In this document: piece by piece, positions 52,398-63,846 of the stretch
Position numbering within the stretch: the stretch's first letter is position 1
How the letters are laid out: the number at the start of each line of letters is the position of its first letter
Source: Clostridiales bacterium
Lineage (GTDB): Bacteria; Bacillota; Clostridia; Christensenellales; Aristaeellaceae
Reading direction: 5' to 3'
Length of the DNA: 64,000 nt
Assembly: GCA_017569285.1 (NCBI GenBank)
Contig: CP069419.1
Span: 1,240,001 to 1,304,000 of the forward strand
Translations under genes and position numbers: made by a program
The notes under the pieces: model-generated
The model's input: only the letters and a program-made list of their open reading frames with translations
Database searches by the model: none
What the model was told of the DNA's origin: nothing

Positions 52398-53336
52398 TCA
52401 GTTCTCCAGTTTCCGGCGGGCTGAGCGTTCCCAGCCGGCAAGCTCCAGCAGTCCCCAGGCCATCAAAGCATAGATCACCACCGGCGGAAGGCCGATCTCG
52501 CCCAGCGTGATCTTCCCGTCCAGCATGAATTCCTCCAGGATCGTCACCGCGCAGACCAGCAGGCCGAACATGGCCGCGCCCCAGTTGCGCTTTCCCTGCT
52601 TACGGCCGGCAATTGCGTACCATACCAGGATTCCTTCGGCGATCAGGTAGCAGAGCAGCTGCTCATAGCGGACAAACAGCCAGCGGATACTCTGGGCCCG
52701 CGCGCTTTCACAGATAATCTGCGCCAGGCACAGGTAGAATATCGTGCGCAGGAAGCACAGGCGGTCATCGCGGTTCCGCAGGGCAAAGATGGCAATCCGC
52801 AGGTACAGGATGCCTTCCAGCATGAATACCGCCAGGTAATACTCCGGAAAATCCGGGTTCCAGGCTTCATAAACCGCAAAGGGGAAAGGCAGCGCTTCCT
52901 CCAGGTAATCCCCGGTTCCCAGCGCGCCCAGCCAGTATTCCCCGAACCGGGCCAGCGCGGCCAGGAGCGCGCCGGATGCCGCGAACGCGTTCAGCGTCTT
53001 TCCCGGCTTCTGTCCCAGGATCCGGGCGGCCAGGAATACGCCGAAGCAGACGCCGGCTGCCCCGCCGTAGTAGGACAGCTCATCCGCCTTCAGGGAGAAC
53101 AGGTATTTCCCGAAACCGGTTTTGAAGATATAGGATGCGCGGAACAGGAAATACAGCAGCTTGGCGCCGACCAGCCCCAGGAGGATGCCCAGTCCCAGGG
53201 AAAGTCCCGCCAGCGCGGCGGCTTTTCCGCCTTCCAGCTTCATCCGCGTCCGGGCGGAAAGCCCGAACAGCGCAAAGCATACCGCAAAGCTTCCGGCAAG
53301 GAAAATCAGGTAGGCAGCCGGATTGGTGGTCATCAT
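52398..53336 (-). CDS. Lgt-like integral membrane protein, divergent (copy 2)
   Basis: 312 residues, six or more membrane segments, AAAGGA upstream. It has the overall shape of prolipoprotein diacylglyceryl transferase: SYYGGAAG matches the Lgt H/Y-G-G segment, and ARFGEYWLG lies where Lgt has GRxGNFxN (arginine kept, asparagine replaced), followed by a glutamate in FMLEG. The GNF-N-E signature and the HPTQLYE motif are not preserved. So it is probably not a working lipoprotein transferase but a paralogue with a new role. Last of a tight leftward operon, 6 bp after a phosphodiester-glycosidase gene. Confidence 0.7.
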   Translation of the reverse strand: MMTTNPAAYLIFLAGSFAVCFALFGLSARTRMKLEGGKAAALAGLSLGLGILLGLVGAKLLYFLFRASYIFKTGFGKYLFSLKADELSYYGGAAGVCFGVFLAARILGQKPGKTLNAFAASGALLAALARFGEYWLGALGTGDYLEEALPFPFAVYEAWNPDFPEYYLAVFMLEGILYLRIAIFALRNRDDRLCFLRTIFYLCLAQIICESARAQSIRWLFVRYEQLLCYLIAEGILVWYAIAGRKQGKRNWGAAMFGLLVCAVTILEEFMLDGKITLGEIGLPPVVIYALMAWGLLELAGWERSARRKLEN

Positions 53337-53342
53337 AATCCT

Positions 53343-54275
53343 TTATTCACCTTCCTCAAACCAGGCGCTGGCAAAATACACGATATCCGACAGCTTCCGG
53401 ACGTTCTGCTTGGTTTTCTGGGTCACATTGTTGTACCACTCGCCCAGGAAAACCAGCTGGGTGGAGCCGCCGCCATCCAGCACATACGCGTTGGTGCAGT
53501 CCGGTGCAAGGCTCAGCACCAGCTGCTTGAACTGCGCCATATTCGCGCCGTTCCGGGTGGCAATCACCTTGTAATGCAGCGGGCCTTCCTGGAGGATGCA
53601 CAGCCGGTCCTCCCGGCCGTCCGGGTCGGCGAACTGCGGGGAATGCTTGGCCGACATCAGGTAATCATCCTCGGTGGGCACGCCGTCAATCACCAGGGCC
53701 GGGCCGAACTGCAGGGCATTGATCACCTTTTTCCCGTCAATCTGCGTCTTGTCCATGGAAGCCAGGTCTTCACTGCCCCGGATGATGTGGAAATCCCCGG
53801 CTTCGTCAATCAGCAGCATATCCAGCCGCTGGTCCACCGTATCGCGGAAAATGGTTCCCTGGCGCAGGACGAATTTGGACGATTCGTTTCCGTGGAAGTC
53901 GCCGCAGTAATCGCCGTTCATGGCGAACACGGCGTTGACCCGCCGTGCGATCGTGGTGCCCACCACCCGGCGCTCCGAGATAAACGTGGTGGGTTCCGCG
54001 CTGGCGGTCCGGATCTGGGAGGGATCCCGGATCACGATATCGGCGATATAGTATTCCCGGTTGATCACGTCGCTCTGGGTCCGGAGGCTCCGCTCCACGC
54101 GGATCGTCGGATCCTCATAAACCAGCTTGTCCGAGGCGTACTGCTCATGGAGCGGGGCGCCGCCGCTCAGGTCAATCGGCAGGGGGCGGAATTCCCCTTC
54201 CGCCGCGGCACAAACGGAAACAGCCGCCAGTACGGCCGCCAGCAGGATGGCTGGGATGGTTTTCAGAACGCGCAT
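53343..54275 (-). CDS. Exported phosphodiester glycosidase (NAGPA domain), copy 2
   Basis: 310 residues. ATG at 54275 has GAGAGG 9 bases upstream; an in-frame ATG at 54299 is possible. Signal peptide ends VCAAA; no lipobox. The NAGPA (PF09992) domain is marked by VNAVFAMNGDYCGDF, ALQFGPALVIDG and YVLDGGGSTQLVFLGEW, ending SDIVYFASAWF. The family includes the human uncovering enzyme, which splits GlcNAc-phospho-mannose diesters. In bacteria it is thought to act on phosphodiester-linked glycopolymers. Substrate unknown. Confidence 0.88.
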   Translation of the reverse strand: MRVLKTIPAILLAAVLAAVSVCAAAEGEFRPLPIDLSGGAPLHEQYASDKLVYEDPTIRVERSLRTQSDVINREYYIADIVIRDPSQIRTASAEPTTFISERRVVGTTIARRVNAVFAMNGDYCGDFHGNESSKFVLRQGTIFRDTVDQRLDMLLIDEAGDFHIIRGSEDLASMDKTQIDGKKVINALQFGPALVIDGVPTEDDYLMSAKHSPQFADPDGREDRLCILQEGPLHYKVIATRNGANMAQFKQLVLSLAPDCTNAYVLDGGGSTQLVFLGEWYNNVTQKTKQNVRKLSDIVYFASAWFEEGE

Positions 54276-54301
54276 GGTATCAGCCTCTCTTCGTTTCATG
54301 A

Positions 54302-55207
54302 TCAGGGTTCCGGGTTTTCCTCCCCGTCCAGGGGAATCCAGCTGTTCGTTTTGAAGATTTCCCGCATCACCGTGTACCGGGGATGGTCCCTCCACCCGTT
54401 TCCCACCGATGACTTGGCAGTGGAATCGATCAGGGTGTCCGGAAGCGCGTCCCGCAGGCGCTGCACGGCTTCCGGGTCCGGCTTCTTGGTCGGGTTGTGG
54501 CTGTTGTACTGCGGAACCCACAGCCGTTCCAGCCATGTCATGGATTCAATCGGCGAGATGTCCGCAATCCGGTTGAAGCCGAGGTTCAGGTCTTTCAGGT
54601 TCACCAGGGCCGGCAGGGCGGATACGTCCCGGATATCGTTGTAGAACAGTTCCAGGTATTCCAGCCCTGTCAGCGAAGCAACCGGCGTAATATCCTGGAA
54701 CTGGTTGTCCACCAGGATCAGGATCTTCAGGTTGGGAAGGTCGTTCAGGAAGGAAAGGTCGTTCACCGCGTTATGCCCGATGTCCAGGGCCACCAGGTTT
54801 TTGCAGTATTTCAGCACGGAAAAATCCTCGTTCTTGTGGCGTGCCGAGCTGTCGCTGTGGGATGTGGAAAACGAAACGGCGTCCGTCCGCACCGTATGGT
54901 TCCCGACCACCATCGTCCATCCGAATTCCACCTCCGGGAACCGTTCCGCCAGCTGTTCAATCCGCTTCCGCGGAATCTTGGTGGAATACATGTCCACATG
55001 CTTCAGGTTGGGCAGCTGGGCCAGGAAGTCATAGAATTCCGGATATCCGCTGCCGGAAACCGCAACCTTCCCCAGGTCGATGCTTTCCGCGTCCGCCGGA
55101 ACCGTCAGCTTTCCGAAGGAGACCGTTTCGCCTCCCTCCGCCGTTCCCGCCGTCAGCGTCATGCAGAGAAGCAGTCCCGCCAGTATTGCGATCCATATCC
55201 TGCGCAT
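54302..55207 (-). CDS. Exported leucine-rich-repeat protein
   Basis: 301 residues, GGAGG upstream. Signal peptide (ILAGLLLCMTLTAGTAEG), then about five LRRs of the 22-residue SDS22-like type (LVALDIGHNAVNDLSFLNDL, LKILILVDNQFQDITPVASL, LEYLELFYNDIRDVSALPAL, LKDLNLGFNRIADISPIESM). A C-terminal tail carries many basic and proline residues. LRRs usually bind proteins. It sits between two NAGPA/Lgt-like pairs and could be the scaffold or recognition part of that system. Confidence 0.88.
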   Translation of the reverse strand: MRRIWIAILAGLLLCMTLTAGTAEGGETVSFGKLTVPADAESIDLGKVAVSGSGYPEFYDFLAQLPNLKHVDMYSTKIPRKRIEQLAERFPEVEFGWTMVVGNHTVRTDAVSFSTSHSDSSARHKNEDFSVLKYCKNLVALDIGHNAVNDLSFLNDLPNLKILILVDNQFQDITPVASLTGLEYLELFYNDIRDVSALPALVNLKDLNLGFNRIADISPIESMTWLERLWVPQYNSHNPTKKPDPEAVQRLRDALPDTLIDSTAKSSVGNGWRDHPRYTVMREIFKTNSWIPLDGEENPEP

Positions 55208-55220
55208 ACAATTCCTCCGG

Positions 55221-56222
55221 TCAGTCTTTCCCGCACCTGTCGGTTTTCATAATCAGGCGGCAGGCGCATACGGCCATGCAGACCGCCGCGGTCAGCATTA
55301 CCATCCAGCAAAGGTCCATCCGCATCCAGGTCAGGAATTTGATCTTGCTTTCCAGGGCGAATTCCATCGCCATGATTACGCCGCAGCACAGCAGGATGCC
55401 GGCCGACGGCACCGCGAAACGCCGGAAGGAGCGTTCCTCCCGGGGCGTACGAAGAATGCAGATTGCGATGATCAGCGCCATCGCGGGCAGGGCCAGCAGC
55501 TGGTTGATCTTCACAAATCCCCAGCGCAGCTCCAGGTCGATCCGGATGCTCTCCAGGAAGGTCTGCAGGGCTGCGTACAGTCCAAGGAACAGGAGCGCTT
55601 TCGTCCCGTCCCGGCGGGTCCGGATCCGCAGCAGCAGGATCAGGAATACGACCGCCGCAATTGCTTCGAGGAGGAATACCGGAAACCGCCACAGCTCGTC
55701 CGCGTCCAGCACGCCGAACGGAAACCGCTGGAAGAAGGAAGAGTCCTCCAGTTCAATCAAGGACCGGCCGAACATGGGGTCAAACCACTCTTCGATGTAT
55801 TCGCCCAGTCCGACCCCCGCCAGGCTTTCCGCGCACCGGGCTGCCGCCGTAAACAGCGCAAAGGGCGCCGCCGCGCCGTCCAGGATCCGGGCGGTCCCCT
55901 GGTGCGTAATCCGTCCGGTCAGCCACGCGGCAAGGACGATCCCGGCCATGGTGCCGTACAGCATATAACCTCCTTCCGTAAAATGGAAGAAGGTTTCAGC
56001 GCCCCGGTCGATAAACCAGGGCAGGGATACGAGGAAGTAAAGGATCCGCCCGCAGAGGACGGCCAGGGGAATCGCAAACAGGCCGAACCAGCTCGCCGTC
56101 TCCGCCTTCAGGCGGTGGCCGCGGCTCAGGAGCCTCATCAGCAGCAGGCTGGCCAGCGCACCGGCCGCCAATGCGAGCCCGTAGGGATAAAATGTGAATG
56201 CACCCGCATCAATCGTTGTCAT
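55221..56222 (-). CDS. Lgt-like integral membrane protein, divergent (copy 1)
   Basis: 333 residues, eight or so membrane segments. The ATG at 56222 is 3 bp after the previous stop, with GGGAG in that gene's end. Lgt-like layout: GGYMLYGTMAG for the H-G-G loop and AARCAESLAGVGLGEYIEEW where Lgt has GRxGNF. Neither the asparagine nor HPTQLYE is kept. More diverged than copy 2. Pairing of each Lgt-like gene directly after a NAGPA gene suggests the two products act together at the membrane. Not expected to make lipoproteins. Confidence 0.7.
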   Translation of the reverse strand: MTTIDAGAFTFYPYGLALAAGALASLLLMRLLSRGHRLKAETASWFGLFAIPLAVLCGRILYFLVSLPWFIDRGAETFFHFTEGGYMLYGTMAGIVLAAWLTGRITHQGTARILDGAAAPFALFTAAARCAESLAGVGLGEYIEEWFDPMFGRSLIELEDSSFFQRFPFGVLDADELWRFPVFLLEAIAAVVFLILLLRIRTRRDGTKALLFLGLYAALQTFLESIRIDLELRWGFVKINQLLALPAMALIIAICILRTPREERSFRRFAVPSAGILLCCGVIMAMEFALESKIKFLTWMRMDLCWMVMLTAAVCMAVCACRLIMKTDRCGKD

Positions 56223-56225
56223 GGA

Positions 56226-57152
56226 TTATTCTCCCGCCGCCGAAGCAAAATAGATGATATCCGAGATTCCCCGGCTGTTGGCGGTTTTGTTCACCATCTT
56301 GCCGTTGAGCAGCAGGTGGGCGGAGCCGCCGCCGTCCAGGTTGTAGGCCACCTTGCAGTCCGGCAGGATTTCGGGAATGAAATTTGCCAGTTCCTGAAGG
56401 TTGATGCCCACGCCGTTCCCGCCGTTGACCACCACGATCGCGTAGCGCAGGTGGTCCAGCTGGCAGATGCAGATCCGGGCGGTCGCCAGCTTGGCTTCAT
56501 GCTCCTTGGAGGTAATGGTCTGTACCTCGCCGTTGTTGATCAGGGCCGGGCCGAAAGTGAAGGAGTTGACGGCAATCCGTCCGGACGCCTCCAGTTCGGC
56601 CAGGAATGCCTGCATATCCCCGCTGGTCGCGTTGGGGATAATCGAAAAATCGCCTTCGCTGTCAATCACCAGCACGTCTCGGGGATATTTCTGCTGGTCC
56701 AGCGCGTCCCGGTAAAATACGCCCTGCCGGATAATATATCCGAAGTCGTAGGTATACTTGGCAAAATCCGCGTTCATCGCCACGACCGCGCGCGTGCGCT
56801 TGGTCATCACATTGGAGCGTTCCTGCTTCCGGCTGTCATAGCTGCCGTCGCTGAAATACGTCCGCAGCTGGCTGGCATCCGCAATCTCCACCGTCACCCA
56901 GGTAATCGTGGTCTTGTCCGCGCTGGACTTGGTTTTGCGGGTTCGGCTGTCCAGCTGGATATGGATGGATTCATCCTGGTATTCTTCCTTGGAAATCCAG
57001 CCGTCCGCCTTCATTTCATCGCCGAAAACATTCATGTCCATCGCCAGCGGATGCGTTTCCGCAAGGGACGCCGGAGACGACACGACCATCGCCATGGCCG
57101 CCAGCAGCAGCACCGTCACAATCCAGCGGATAATCTTCCCGGTCACAAGCAT
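56226..57152 (-). CDS. Exported phosphodiester glycosidase (NAGPA domain), copy 1
   Basis: 308 residues from the ATG at 57152 (AGGGAGG upstream). Signal peptide (IIRWIVTVLLLAAMAMVV, ends SLAET). NAGPA marks: RAVVAMNADFAKY, NSFTFGPALINNG, VAYNLDGGGSAHLLLNGKMV, ending SDIIYFASAAGE. Same C-terminal pattern as copy 2, so a duplication. First gene of the five-gene operon running to 52398, behind a TATAAT at 57178-57183. Confidence 0.88.
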   Translation of the reverse strand: MLVTGKIIRWIVTVLLLAAMAMVVSSPASLAETHPLAMDMNVFGDEMKADGWISKEEYQDESIHIQLDSRTRKTKSSADKTTITWVTVEIADASQLRTYFSDGSYDSRKQERSNVMTKRTRAVVAMNADFAKYTYDFGYIIRQGVFYRDALDQQKYPRDVLVIDSEGDFSIIPNATSGDMQAFLAELEASGRIAVNSFTFGPALINNGEVQTITSKEHEAKLATARICICQLDHLRYAIVVVNGGNGVGINLQELANFIPEILPDCKVAYNLDGGGSAHLLLNGKMVNKTANSRGISDIIYFASAAGE

Positions 57153-58934: not shown

Positions 58935-60152
58935 TCACGGGATATTCTCCATGAAATCGTTCTTCCCCTGGTCCGGCCCCACCGCGGTATAGTACAGGCC
59001 AAAGGCCGTATTGTCGTGGTCGCCCACCGGTTTGAACTCATAGTGGCCGATTTTGACCTGGGAAACATGGTAAAGGAACGCTTCCCCGGCAATATCAAAC
59101 CCCGTTTTCCCGCCGAATGATTCCAGCGGCTGGGTCCAGTCCATGGACACCTTATTCTTTTCATACTCGTGCAGGTAAAGCTTCTTCACCTGCCAGGTCC
59201 CGTATTCTTTGGCCGACTCCGGATATTTCCGGCTGTTGGCCGCATACTTGATGCAGGTCTTGGCGGAATCCGCCGTCGCTTTATGCGCGCTGTGCCCGTA
59301 CTCGCCGCCTTCCCCGTGGGTCACCACCACCTCCGGTTTGAATTTCCGGAAGCATTCCGTCACCAGGCGGTGCACCCGTGTTTTTCCCTTCCACAGGGTA
59401 TACTGCCTGGCCAGGTTTTTATGGCCGTTCTTGTCATGAAGCCCGATGAAATACGGATAATACCGCATCCCGCAGTGCCAGGCGGACTGCAGCAGTTCCA
59501 GCTGGCGTTCCTCATATTCCGGCGTCATCATGGCCAGCTGCACCTTGTAGCCGCGGTCGGCATACACCGGCATCAGCCCGGCAAACCAGAGCACTTCATC
59601 ATCCGGGTGGCAGGCCAGCAGCATCATGTCCGCCTTGTCCAGGTCCTGCCAGTCCTGGACCTCTTCCGGTTTCTTTCCCTCGCCGAACAGCTGCAGCTCC
59701 GCAATCCGCAGCCGCTCCCTGCTCGTCGTCAGGATCCGGATCCGGTTCACCGGCTCCTCCAGCGGATGCCAGTTGCTCAGGTATTTGCTCTGCCCGATGG
59801 TTTTCCATTCCCCGTCCGCGCCCGCGGTTTGCAGGTCATAGGAATAATCCTGGTTGAACCGGTCGTACAGCATCACCGAAACGCCGTAGATCGGCTCCGG
59901 GCTGTCAATGGTCAGGAAACCGTTCTTTTCCTTCAGCGCAAAGTAGGTGCTGACGTCGCCGTCCGTCATCAGCTGGAAGGTGTTCTTTTTGCTTTCCTTG
60001 GAGTTGCCGCCCCAGGTGCATCCGGCAGTGATTTCCTCCGCATACGGCTCGGCCTCCGGTGGTTCGGCCGTTCCCCCGGGAATCATCGTCACCAGCAGCA
60101 GGAAAAGCAGGAATCCCGAAACCAGCCGGCGGGCATATCCGTTCATGCTCAT
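58935..60152 (-). CDS. Exported PIG-L family deacetylase with N-terminal discoidin-like domain
   Basis: 405 residues from the ATG at 60152, which overlaps the CotH stop by ATGA. Signal peptide (SGFLLFLLLVTMIPGGTA). Residues about 30-165 look like an F5/8-type carbohydrate-binding domain (FQLMTDGDVSTYFALKE). The PIG-L catalytic domain has the zinc motif ACHPDDEVLW and the second histidine in THGEGGEYGHSAH. This family removes N-acetyl groups from GlcNAc-containing compounds. Here it probably acts on a cell-surface glycan. Confidence 0.9.
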   Translation of the reverse strand: MSMNGYARRLVSGFLLFLLLVTMIPGGTAEPPEAEPYAEEITAGCTWGGNSKESKKNTFQLMTDGDVSTYFALKEKNGFLTIDSPEPIYGVSVMLYDRFNQDYSYDLQTAGADGEWKTIGQSKYLSNWHPLEEPVNRIRILTTSRERLRIAELQLFGEGKKPEEVQDWQDLDKADMMLLACHPDDEVLWFAGLMPVYADRGYKVQLAMMTPEYEERQLELLQSAWHCGMRYYPYFIGLHDKNGHKNLARQYTLWKGKTRVHRLVTECFRKFKPEVVVTHGEGGEYGHSAHKATADSAKTCIKYAANSRKYPESAKEYGTWQVKKLYLHEYEKNKVSMDWTQPLESFGGKTGFDIAGEAFLYHVSQVKIGHYEFKPVGDHDNTAFGLYYTAVGPDQGKNDFMENIP

Positions 60153-61834
60153 TTTCCGCCACCCCATTCCCCGTTCAGGAAGTGATACCGCTTCTCCAGG
60201 TAATTCTTCAGGAACCGGACGTTCTCGCTGAATGAGCCGCCCGTCTGGGCTACCGTACTCGATACGTCCGGGCGCAGCCAGCGCTGGCGGTCCATCGCCG
60301 CGGAATCCTCAATGGACTTGGCCAGGCGGTCGATGGACTGGATGCCCGTTTCCCCGGCTTCGCGTTTGCCCAGCAGTACCTCCACGGCAGGCCGGGCCTT
60401 TTCCTGCCAGAGCTCCGCCACTTTCTGCCGGAAGTCCTCATGCCGGTACAGGGCCGGATACCAGGCGGTCTTGTCGCCCTTGGCGATCCACAGGTATTCC
60501 GGGTTCAGCACATACTTGGCGTTATGCTTCGCGGCATAGGAGCCGAAGGTGCTGTCATAGTCCCACGCGGGCCCGGCATAAATCTTCCCGCTGATGCTGT
60601 CCTGCGGCTTGTAGAAATACTGGCTGGAGGAATTCCCGTCGTAGTTTTCACTGATTTCTTCAACCATGTACTTCAGGGCCAGGGATTCCTCGTCCGCAAT
60701 TTCCGTATAGTGTTTCCCGCTTTCCGGATCCTTTCCGTCCGATGCCATAATGGCGTTTTCAAACGACTGCATCAGGGCGGAAATATACTTCATCTGTGCG
60801 GATGATATGTATTCTGGTGATTTGGACACCAAGACCCCGCCCTTTTTCGTAGTATAGGCGCTGGCTTCCATTCCGTAGCGCACCGGATAGCTTTCGTATT
60901 CGATCAGGTAGCCTCCGGTAATATCCTCCGGATCCACCGGAATACTGTACGCTTTGTAATGGCCTTTGGTTGATGCCTTTTTGCCGACCAGTTTGTTTTT
61001 CTCCAGGGGCTCGCTGTTCACCTTTTCGGTTGCCTTTTCCAGGTCGGCAAACGCAACCCGGTCATTGTCAATCTCCACCTTTTCGGAAAAGAGGTACAGT
61101 CCCCGGTACTCGTGGTTGATGTACAGCTCCGCAGCGGTATGCTCCGGGGTGTAATCCAGGCCGATGGCCGCGGCCAGGTCCAGCACCGCCTGGTTCCGCA
61201 GGTAGGACTTGTCCCGGTAATTGCCGGTCAGAATCCATTTCTTGGCCTTGCCCATTCCCAGGAGGTCGGTTCCTTTGGCCAGCTTGATCTGGTAATTCTT
61301 CTTTTTGAACTGCATGGAGGAATTCCCGCGGGTCTTTACATGCTCCAGCTCGCCGTCATACTGGACGCTTCCGTCCGGGCCGCGGAACACAAGGTACCCG
61401 GGTTCCTTATTGTCCTTTTTCGCTTCGATTTTCTTCAGGCTGCCGCTCGCCGTGGTCACATACACCGCCGGCAGGTTTGCCGATCCCCGCATCACCTGCA
61501 GGCTGGCCCTGGTCTTTCCGATTTTGATCTGGTATTTTCCGGGTTTGATGATCCCGGCCCCGTCTCCGCTCTGCACCGAACGGGAGCCGAATGTGAACGG
61601 TACCCCGTCCGCGAGGCCGAATTTAAGGTCTTCCGTCTTCAGGTTTCCCGGAAGATACAGCGTATAGCCTTTTCCTTCATTCCTGTTGAATGTAATCGCG
61701 TCTGCCGTCAGCTCCCCGTCCGGTGAAATCCAGACCTCCGGTCCGCCGGAAGCCGCATGCGCTGCCCCCAGGCAGGCCAGCAGCGCCGCCAGGATCCACA
61801 GGAAAACCCGGATCCTGAATCCCCGTACTGTCAT
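60149..61834 (-). CDS. Exported CotH-family kinase-like protein
   Basis: 561 residues, GGGAGGG upstream. Signal peptide (FLWILAALLACLGAAHA). CotH domain from about residue 155: VKTRGNSSMQFKKKNYQIKL, KKWILTGNYRDKSYLRN, ELYINHEYRGLYLFSEKVEID, DITGGYLIEYES, and the metal motif AGPAWDYDSTFG. CotH proteins are atypical kinases that phosphorylate secreted or coat proteins. Coupled by 4-bp ATGA overlaps to both neighbours, so made in step with NAGPA 3 and the PIG-L enzyme. A spore-coat role is not implied by the context. Confidence 0.92.
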   Translation of the reverse strand: MTVRGFRIRVFLWILAALLACLGAAHAASGGPEVWISPDGELTADAITFNRNEGKGYTLYLPGNLKTEDLKFGLADGVPFTFGSRSVQSGDGAGIIKPGKYQIKIGKTRASLQVMRGSANLPAVYVTTASGSLKKIEAKKDNKEPGYLVFRGPDGSVQYDGELEHVKTRGNSSMQFKKKNYQIKLAKGTDLLGMGKAKKWILTGNYRDKSYLRNQAVLDLAAAIGLDYTPEHTAAELYINHEYRGLYLFSEKVEIDNDRVAFADLEKATEKVNSEPLEKNKLVGKKASTKGHYKAYSIPVDPEDITGGYLIEYESYPVRYGMEASAYTTKKGGVLVSKSPEYISSAQMKYISALMQSFENAIMASDGKDPESGKHYTEIADEESLALKYMVEEISENYDGNSSSQYFYKPQDSISGKIYAGPAWDYDSTFGSYAAKHNAKYVLNPEYLWIAKGDKTAWYPALYRHEDFRQKVAELWQEKARPAVEVLLGKREAGETGIQSIDRLAKSIEDSAAMDRQRWLRPDVSSTVAQTGGSFSENVRFLKNYLEKRYHFLNGEWGGGK

Positions 61835-63081
61835 TCTTTTCCCTCCCGGATGCCGATCATCCCGTTGACGGTCCGCAGGTCCTTCTCCTTGACCCCTGCC
61901 GGCCGGTTGATCACATCATCCATAAAGATCATACAGGTGGTATTGCCGCCGTCCAGGTTCACCGCCTCAACGGCGCCCAGTTCAATCAGTTTGTCCGCCA
62001 GCCAGGTGATGGTGACCCCCACCGCGTCCTTCCGGCGGCCCAGGACGTCCACGGCCAGGATGGTCCCGTCCGCGGTGATCCCCATGGCCATCCGCGGGGC
62101 CCGGTCCGTGGTCCGCCACTTTTTCAGGTCCGGGCACACCGTGCCGTTCTCCACCAGGATCGGGCCGAAGGCAAATGTGCTCACGACGCCCATGTCCAGG
62201 TATTCCTGCGCGGTGTGCGAATCCGATTCATATGTTTTCATGTGCCCGTCGTCAAAAAGGGCAATCAGGTCCAGGGGCGGCCATACCCGGCTGTCCCCTT
62301 TTTTCGTTTTTTCGGACCAGACCCGGCCGTTCCGGATCACAATGCCCGTTGTCTGCTTGTTCAGCATCCGGTATCCGAAGAAATCGTCGGAAAACGCGAA
62401 TACGGCCTTGTGGTCCCGGACAATCGTCGTCGGTTTGGAAAGGAACGTGCCGGATTTGGTCATTTTCTCCGGCGGCGCTTCATTCACCATCGCGCCGAAA
62501 AACGCCGGTTCCCGGTAGCGGATGGCCGCTTCCAGCCACTGGTGCGGCACGGATTTGTCCACACGCTGCCGGACCTCCACATGGATATCCCGGCTCACAT
62601 AGCTCCATACCCCGGCCTTCCGGTCCGCGTAGACGTAGGGCTTCTCCGCGTCATAGAACCCTTCCTCATCCAGCGGGATCTTCGTCTTCCCGGCCGGTTC
62701 AGGCATAAGGAACCGGGCCGGCGCCTTCCCGTTGCTGCTGTCGGCCGCCGCCCGCTTCTTTCCGTCCTTTCCGATGCAGTTATCCGAAAAAATCAGTTCC
62801 TGCAGTTCGGGGGTGGCGATTCCCGTCTGCCGGAGTCCGTTCTTTTTCTGGAGCTGCCGGATTCGTTCCACTGTGTTTTTGTTATAGTCATCCCCAAAGT
62901 TCCGGGAGGTAATGTAGCCGAGGTCAAACAATCTTTCCTTCAGCGCCGTCACGTCCGGGCCGCTGTCTCCTTTTTTCAGCTCCCGGTAGGAAGCCTCCGC
63001 GAAAACCCCGGTAACAATCACCGCCAGCAGCAATAACACGGCCACGGCCGCCGCTGCCGGGAGCGCTTTATATTTCTTCAT
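61831..63081 (-). CDS. Exported phosphodiester glycosidase with peptidoglycan-binding domain (copy 3)
   Basis: 416 residues, GCAGG upstream. N-terminal membrane/signal segment (AAAAVAVLLLLAVIVTGVFAEA), then a PG_binding_1 domain (LKKGDSGPDVTALKERLFDLGYI...TGIATPELQELIF), then the NAGPA domain (KAVFAFSDDFFGY, STFAFGPILVENG, VEAVNLDGGNTTCMIFMDD). It ends VNGMIGIREGKE. The wall-binding module places the enzyme at the peptidoglycan, supporting action on a wall-linked polymer. Second gene of the 63846-58935 operon. Confidence 0.9.
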   Translation of the reverse strand: MKKYKALPAAAAVAVLLLLAVIVTGVFAEASYRELKKGDSGPDVTALKERLFDLGYITSRNFGDDYNKNTVERIRQLQKKNGLRQTGIATPELQELIFSDNCIGKDGKKRAAADSSNGKAPARFLMPEPAGKTKIPLDEEGFYDAEKPYVYADRKAGVWSYVSRDIHVEVRQRVDKSVPHQWLEAAIRYREPAFFGAMVNEAPPEKMTKSGTFLSKPTTIVRDHKAVFAFSDDFFGYRMLNKQTTGIVIRNGRVWSEKTKKGDSRVWPPLDLIALFDDGHMKTYESDSHTAQEYLDMGVVSTFAFGPILVENGTVCPDLKKWRTTDRAPRMAMGITADGTILAVDVLGRRKDAVGVTITWLADKLIELGAVEAVNLDGGNTTCMIFMDDVINRPAGVKEKDLRTVNGMIGIREGKE

Positions 63082-63093
63082 TTTTCTGCCTGC

Positions 63094-63846
63094 TTATTCG
63101 TTCACAATAATCCGGACCTTGGCATTCTCGATGGTATAGTGGGTTTCGGCCTGGATCGGCTCATCGCCGCTCCGGATGGTGATCCTTCCGCCGATAATCT
63201 CCACATAACCCAGGGAGGATTTTTCCTTATTGGTGCTCTTGATGCCGTCCTTGCCCGCGTTGATCTCGATCTCGCCGCCGGCAATCTGCACGCTGTCCTT
63301 CCCCTTGATGCCGTGCCGGACAGCTTCCACCACAATCTTCCCGCCGCGGATGACCAGGGTGTCCTTGGACGCGATTCCGTCCACCCGTCCGCCGGTCACC
63401 TGCAGGCTTCCGCTTCCCTCAATCACAAGGTCTGCCGCGGAAAACAGCACCGCGCTCGGATCCTCATCCGGATCCGCGTTGCTCTGCGGTCCGTCGGAAA
63501 TAATGTTCTCTGTTCCTTCCGCCAGGGAGATCACCGCCTGCCGGCCGCACCTTTCCACTTCGATGGCCGCGCTCGCCTTGTTGTGGATTTCCACCCCGCT
63601 CAGGACAAGGACAACGTCGCCCTTTTCCTTCACGTCCACATGAATCTGCCCGTCGGTCAGTGTGCCGGAGAGCACGTAGGTTCCGGGTTTTTCAATCCGG
63701 ACCACCCCGTTGTCAAAGGACACGCCCTCTGTTTCCTGCTCCAGCCCCATGTCTGAAAAAGAAACAACAGCCGCGTCTTCTCCAAGGACAGGTACTGCTG
63801 CGAACAGCATGATCACCAGCAGGATAATCACGCTTTTCTTCATCAT
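63094..63846 (-). CDS. Exported carbohydrate-binding beta-helix protein (Cthe_2159-like, DUF4353)
   Basis: 250 residues, GGAGG upstream. Signal peptide (VIILLVIMLFAAVPVLGED). The repeated GGxIxIxA/GxDGIKS turns (GGKIVVEAVRHGIKGKDSVQIAGGEIEIN, split by DGI motifs) are those of the Cthe_2159 beta-helix family. Its Clostridium thermocellum founder binds cellulose and polygalacturonate. First gene of the operon, 12 bp before NAGPA 3. May serve as the glycan-binding partner of the enzymes that follow. Confidence 0.88.
   Translation of the reverse strand: MMKKSVIILLVIMLFAAVPVLGEDAAVVSFSDMGLEQETEGVSFDNGVVRIEKPGTYVLSGTLTDGQIHVDVKEKGDVVLVLSGVEIHNKASAAIEVERCGRQAVISLAEGTENIISDGPQSNADPDEDPSAVLFSAADLVIEGSGSLQVTGGRVDGIASKDTLVIRGGKIVVEAVRHGIKGKDSVQIAGGEIEINAGKDGIKSTNKEKSSLGYVEIIGGRITIRSGDEPIQAETHYTIENAKVRIIVNE

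Follow-up and report, generated by a model that had tools for sequence, protein, structure and literature searches.

Exported NAGPA-type phosphodiester glycosidases paired with rewired Lgt-like membrane proteins in a family of Clostridia

The closest described relatives of the gene pair considered here are Lgt (PF01790; E. coli structures 5azb and 5azc) and the NAGPA/DUF2233 phosphodiester glycosidases (6pki; BACOVA_00430, 3ohg; Slr0280, 5h3k). Genes of both kinds lie side by side, twice, in a five-gene operon of a Clostridiales bacterium (GenBank assembly GCA_017569285.1, contig CP069419.1), within a stretch of 64,000 nucleotides that is called the window and covers C1:1240001-1304000 of the 3.27 Mb genome. 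Lgt-like genes of the type found in this operon, and their proteins, are termed LL. LL resembles Lgt in a full-length profile match, in the transmembrane plan of the first seven helices and in residues of the R143, E243 and R246 type, but differs in the replacement of N146 by E and of R239 by Q, in having no lipobox partner and in its pairing with NAGPA. LL also has two more C-terminal helices than E. coli Lgt, and the canonical Lgt of the same genome is likewise extended at its C-terminus. Second Lgt copies with N146 replaced are described (N146C-type homologues such as MSMEG_5408 and those of Leptospira; PMC13251419), and loci L054-L060 hold a third Lgt-family group of this kind with a GCF...GCCYG motif. 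Unlike LL, these proteins carry C rather than E, keep R239 and have no NAGPA neighbours.

NAGPA/DUF2233 enzymes share their fold and NLDGGxS core with the paired NAGPAs, which, unlike the vertebrate uncovering enzyme (6pki), are bacterial, exported and followed by a gene for a dedicated membrane partner. Multi-component transmembrane glycosylation of the CsbB-GtcA-YfhO type likewise places a GT-A enzyme and GtrA, fused in the present case, beside an extracytoplasmic sugar-active protein (PMC8035078), but here NAGPA, joined by LL in this family, occupies the position expected of the GT-C transferase, and not in all copies. For UshA of B. subtilis, release of undecaprenyl phosphate from its sugar has been proposed, which is also the outcome suggested below for NAGPA-LL; however, the UshA/UpsH carrier-lipid liberating hydrolases have folds unrelated to NAGPA and act at the cytoplasmic face, whereas NAGPA is exported (PMC11898649).

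A sequence-only reading of the window took the repeated pairing as an argument for a joint function, and related genomes bear this out. A PF01790 search covered 60 genomes from the taxonomic family of the window, and the neighbourhoods of divergent matches were then read with six-frame profile searches. These genomes hold 73 LL genes, up to five or six each, and 71 are assessable once two at contig ends are set aside. NAGPA lies directly upstream on the same strand in 63 of the 71, mostly a few bp away (one of these NAGPA genes is cut by a contig end). Canonical lgt, by contrast, has NAGPA within 1.5 kb at none of 30 loci (three of them cut short), and N146C-type homologues have it within 4 kb at none of seven. 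Across 77 LL loci only NAGPA and LL are near-constant; no other gene is common to most. The genome that contains the window has six Lgt-family genes, one canonical (C1:31343, E 3e-64) and five non-canonical. All five of the latter, but not the canonical gene, stand directly behind NAGPA. The chance that five of five would fall behind one of the nine NAGPA genes of this genome is of the order of 1e-13 (about 2,900 genes, estimated from genome size). The other four NAGPA genes are unpaired with LL. An unpaired NAGPA at L020:8288-12209 is grouped with DUF4956, VTC and Cthe_2159 genes.

The two partners have also diverged together. Across the 66 pairs compared, which come from 34 genomes, NAGPA distances correlate with those of the LL partners at r = 0.70, while 2,000 trials in which partners were swapped among paralogues of the same genome, a procedure that preserves species history, average r = 0.19 and peak at 0.44. 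LL is monophyletic with respect to the canonical Lgt of the family (100/100), and adding outside Lgts does not break the clade up (SH-aLRT 96). The paired NAGPAs group together to the exclusion of the four unpaired NAGPAs of the window's genome (SH-aLRT 99); this clade also takes in a few further NAGPAs encoded at LL loci. NAGPA and LL have been retained and have changed together, so they very likely share one job at the cell surface, and this job has not previously been described; no paper in the literature collection searched links Lgt to a phosphodiester glycosidase. A joint function is well supported. The pairing might instead be left over from the duplication and spread of a single ancestral operon, with no joint function, which would fit the single origin of LL and the flanks that some copies share (M1 peptidase, GT2-GtrA). 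This is very improbable: flanks otherwise differ across the 77 loci while NAGPA and LL alone are near-constant, adjacency and within-genome co-divergence persist although divergence is very deep (LL identity to the window copy, 19-43%), and dN is far below dS.

The last point comes from the operon itself. Its leftward order of NAGPA, Lgt-like, leucine-rich-repeat (LRR), NAGPA and Lgt-like genes, as first read from the sequence, agrees with coordinates and Pfam, with gaps of 3, 13, 26 and 6 bp (Table 1). Pfam scores exceed the gathering scores for both families (PF01790, 27.8 and 89 bits against 24.9; PF09992, 72.9 and 61.4 bits against 25). NAGPA-1 is predicted to be exported, with a probable cleavable signal peptide that lacks a lipobox, and its gene is preceded by the ribosome-binding site GGGAGG. 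NAGPA-2 belongs to the paired-NAGPA clade in the tree; ATG 54275 is its likely start, the mechanical open reading frame extending 5' into the LRR gene. The same five-gene order occurs between other flanking genes in an uncultured Clostridia metagenome assembly (L164), with protein identities of about 68-83%. Against these orthologues dN is 0.10-0.25 and dS 1.2-2.0, with zero internal stops; with dN so far below dS and no stops, all five genes are under purifying selection and not decaying. A role in anti-phage defence was dropped, since PADLOC models gave no meaningful match to the five operon proteins (a single weak 15-bit hit).

Table 1. Operon genes in the window (window positions) and LL loci of the same genome (C1 positions); bracketed residues are E. 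coli Lgt positions.
Feature	Position	Strand	Description	Active-site positions
NAGPA-1	56226-57152	-	308 aa, first gene of the operon; PF09992 E 4.9e-20	
LL-1 (Lgt-like)	55221-56222	-	333 aa polytopic membrane protein, partner of NAGPA-1; PF01790 E 3.9e-25	R129 (R143), E132 (N146), Q220 (R239), E224 (E243), R227 (R246)
LRR	54302-55207	-	301 aa exported leucine-rich-repeat protein; LRR_4 E 1.6e-26	
NAGPA-2	53343-54275	-	310 aa, exported, without lipobox; PF09992 E 1.6e-16	
LL-2 (Lgt-like)	52398-53336	-	312 aa, partner of NAGPA-2; PF01790 E 2e-6, above Pfam cut-off	R129, E132 (N146), Q205 (R239), E209, R212; numbered from ATG 53333
LL loci behind NAGPA	C1:1292623, 1295455, 1345506, 409547, 1364793			

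The relation of LL to Lgt, suspected from the outline of the window proteins, holds at the profile level: the LL profile (A1) matches E. coli Lgt 5azb over its full length (E 1e-26), and LL-2 matches A1 with 234.7 bits over positions 8-308. An AF2 model of LL built from six sequences is of low confidence (pLDDT 62.5, pTM 0.65; nine long helices in the LL-1 model), and its top Foldseek match is again 5azb (prob 1.00, E 3e-3, TM 0.42-0.49). The VIA-align Z of this model, 10.5, is within the range of unrelated helical bundles and is not decisive on the fold because such bundles score alike.

The GNF-N and HPTQLYE signatures are indeed missing from the window proteins, but the same reading called these proteins degenerate, and here the alignment of 70 LL with 30 canonical Lgts of the family says otherwise. 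Two positions that are invariant in canonical Lgt hold specific conserved residues in LL, E at N146 (62/70) and Q at R239 (59/70). Other positions are retained (R143 in 62/70, G154 in 54/70, E202 in 59/70, E243 in 64/70 and R246 in 65/70), the Y26-type position is largely kept, and E151 is variable. Judged by these residues, LL is an Lgt paralogue with its own conserved active-site set and not a degenerate one. In E. coli Lgt, neither N146A nor R239A supports growth (PMC13251419), and R239A, E, H, K and Q all fail (PMC4728403).

These exchanges bear on whether LL are simply extra lipoprotein Lgts, perhaps for special lipoproteins, that happen to lie near glycan genes. PF01790 matches above the Pfam cut-off would agree with such a role, yet it is highly unlikely. 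A separate canonical Lgt is present, and none of 66 NAGPA partners has a lipobox, as the early reading had also found in the window; NAGPA was thus rejected as a lipoprotein partner of LL. The NCBIfam lgt equivalog TIGR00544 gives LL-1 58.1 bits against a cut-off of 118.9 and does not match LL-2, the residue set of functional Lgt (R143, N146, G154, R239) is broken in LL by the replacement of N146 and R239, and the pairing is far beyond chance.

LL might also still be a diacylglyceryl transferase that uses phosphatidylglycerol but with a new acceptor in place of the lipobox cysteine, such as a sugar or the end of a glycan, which NAGPA would prepare or trim to yield a lipid-anchored surface glycan. 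The full-length Lgt profile match, the largely retained Y26-, R143-, G154-, E202-, E243- and R246-type positions, a partner from a glycan-active family, and the lack of a lipobox in every partner are all consistent with this. It is nonetheless rather unlikely, as E. coli Lgt cannot do without N146 or R239, R239Q does not complement, and both residues are replaced in nearly all LL. No Lgt is known to us to use a glycan as acceptor.

The paired NAGPAs conserve the NAGPA fold and the NLDGGxS core. The NAGPA profile matches vertebrate NAGPA structures, and a model of NAGPA-1 (m929349839929) has 6pki as its best match (Foldseek E 2e-14). R226, D273, G274 and G275 are invariant in the NAGPA alignment (A2), and hydrolysis of a sugar-1-phosphodiester is a prediction. 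By a rough heuristic, NAGPAs that occur without LL mostly look membrane-anchored, whereas LL-paired NAGPAs mostly look cleavable (AxA-type site in 44/66), as if the membrane part came from LL. The same difference would suit a catalytically dead Lgt paralogue that is a mere membrane anchor for NAGPA, the glycosidase alone being active, and so would the exchange of two essential positions and the strict pairing and co-divergence expected of a binding partner. This explanation is unlikely too: the replacing residues are themselves conserved (E 62/70, Q 59/70) alongside R143, E243 and R246, the conserved positions are buried and polar in E. coli Lgt and would not be needed by a pure anchor, and a nine-helix protein is costly as an anchor.

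The sequence-only reading suggested that the pair might build or trim a phosphodiester-linked surface polymer; GT2-GtrA neighbours point to lipid-phosphate-linked sugars as a possible substrate. A GT2-GtrA fusion (PF00535 and PF04138) lies near 19 of 77 LL loci; at 17 of these its gene immediately precedes NAGPA on the same strand. The only such fusion in the window's genome (C1:413305) is 2-3 kb upstream of the NAGPA-LL pair at C1:410 kb, also on the same strand. GT-A and GtrA systems make and flip undecaprenyl-phosphate (C55-P) sugars (PMC8035078); the fusion is predicted to make and flip a sugar-phosphate-undecaprenol, and a C55-P-sugar is itself a sugar-1-phosphodiester. Outside the family, 19 loci with relatives of the paired NAGPA were read; GT2-GtrA adjoins the NAGPA gene at 7 of them, and none of the 19 has LL. 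At L192, L193, L196, L199, L200, L201 and L206, from other families of Clostridia, NAGPA and GT2-GtrA form a conserved two-gene unit without LL, and at L193 and L196 VTC- and DUF4956-like genes seem to adjoin it, as judged by eye from N-termini. The occurrence of NAGPA and GT2-GtrA without LL in other families suggests that this is probably the older unit and that LL joined later in this family. The literature collection searched held no description of a NAGPA and GT2-GtrA unit and no paper linking GtrA to NAGPA. CapA-like proteins, M1 peptidases, PIG-L deacetylases, metallo-beta-lactamase-fold proteins and LRR proteins also recur at LL loci, as do proteins read by the author, not by Pfam, as DUF6273-like. 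No GT-C transferase stood out among the shared neighbours, although no search aimed at GT-C was made.

The reading preferred here, with a probability of roughly 40%, is that NAGPA-LL is a two-component enzyme unit at the outer face of the cytoplasmic membrane in which LL binds a lipid phosphate and NAGPA acts on a sugar-1-phosphodiester. LL would have retained the lipid-binding fold and the phosphate-binding arginine while exchanging the two residues for diacylglyceryl transfer to cysteine, and its most likely role is that of a membrane partner binding or presenting a lipid linked through phosphate. The most plausible lipid would be an undecaprenyl-phosphate sugar made and flipped by the GT2-GtrA protein. 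Exported NAGPA might then act on its sugar-1-phosphodiester, either by hydrolysis or by transfer of the sugar to a surface acceptor, and in some copies the LRR protein may select the target. That NAGPA and LL are physical partners, that the substrate is lipid-linked and which way the reaction runs are all inferred.

Several observations weigh against this reading. GT2-GtrA adjoins no more than about one pair in four and is missing from the window operon. NAGPAs of LL-free families evidently work without LL. The lipid sugars made by GT2 enzymes are expected to be beta-linked, whereas the GlcNAc-1-phosphate cleaved by vertebrate NAGPA is alpha-linked, a mismatch that weakens the case for the specific substrate. 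At eight LL genes no NAGPA stands directly upstream: among these exceptions, a CapA-like gene separates NAGPA from LL at L087, NAGPA is downstream and an LRR gene upstream at L119, a PIG-L gene lies downstream at L101, and LL is solitary at L065 and L089. The first LL copy of L116 (L116:3995-5011) lacks R143, N146 and E243; it has no NAGPA of its own upstream, adjoins a PIG-L gene and is apparently a decaying or altered paralogue.

The LRR gene that was read as part of the operon is present there, but it is no constant part of LL loci. LRR genes occur at only about 10 of about 79 loci, in one case fused to NAGPA and in several on the other strand, and the LRR protein was rejected as an obligate component. 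Its link to the pair is seen at C1:1362900-1364768 (L018:7900-9768), where LRR_4 and NAGPA are fused as one gene followed by LL, which ties the window LRR protein to the NAGPA-LL pair. A CapA-like gene lies upstream of this fusion locus and a metallo-beta-lactamase-fold gene downstream. A second leftward operon of the window (58935-63846) encodes a PIG-L deacetylase, a CotH kinase, a PG_binding and NAGPA protein and a Cthe_2159 carbohydrate-binding protein. Its NAGPA falls outside the paired clade, the N-terminus of its PIG-L protein is F5/8-like by the author's reading, and relatives of the PIG-L gene adjoin LL genes in L101, L115, L116 and L119.

At the cut-offs applied, no full-length LL turned up beyond the family in genome samples from the order (200), the class (291) and the phylum (299), samples that include the window's genome and its relatives and represent its family by few genomes; the search used a profile from this family at strict cut-offs, so distant or weaker relatives may be missed. 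A single-protein scan gave three loci. The named relatives are all Clostridia that have not been cultured, and sheep rumen is the source of two.

Lgt is regarded as nearly universal, as serving a single purpose and as a drug target, yet one family of uncultured gut Clostridia has here multiplied a rewired form, nearly every copy of which is tied to a member of a glycosidase family whose substrates are phosphate-linked sugars. LL genes pass the Pfam cut-off for Lgt and are likely miscalled as lipoprotein transferases, a warning for annotation. A bolder proposal, tentative and on balance doubtful, is that LL is the first Lgt-fold enzyme to have moved into glycan or carrier-lipid metabolism, with NAGPA-LL an extracytoplasmic enzyme of two subunits that handles lipid-phosphate-linked sugars, stands in for the GT-C transferase of known systems and has split into several paralogous specificities within each genome. 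Should its substrates be undecaprenyl-phosphate sugars, the pair would represent a new way to use or free the carrier lipid outside the cell, and LL would offer a test case for a lipoprotein enzyme changing its chemistry.

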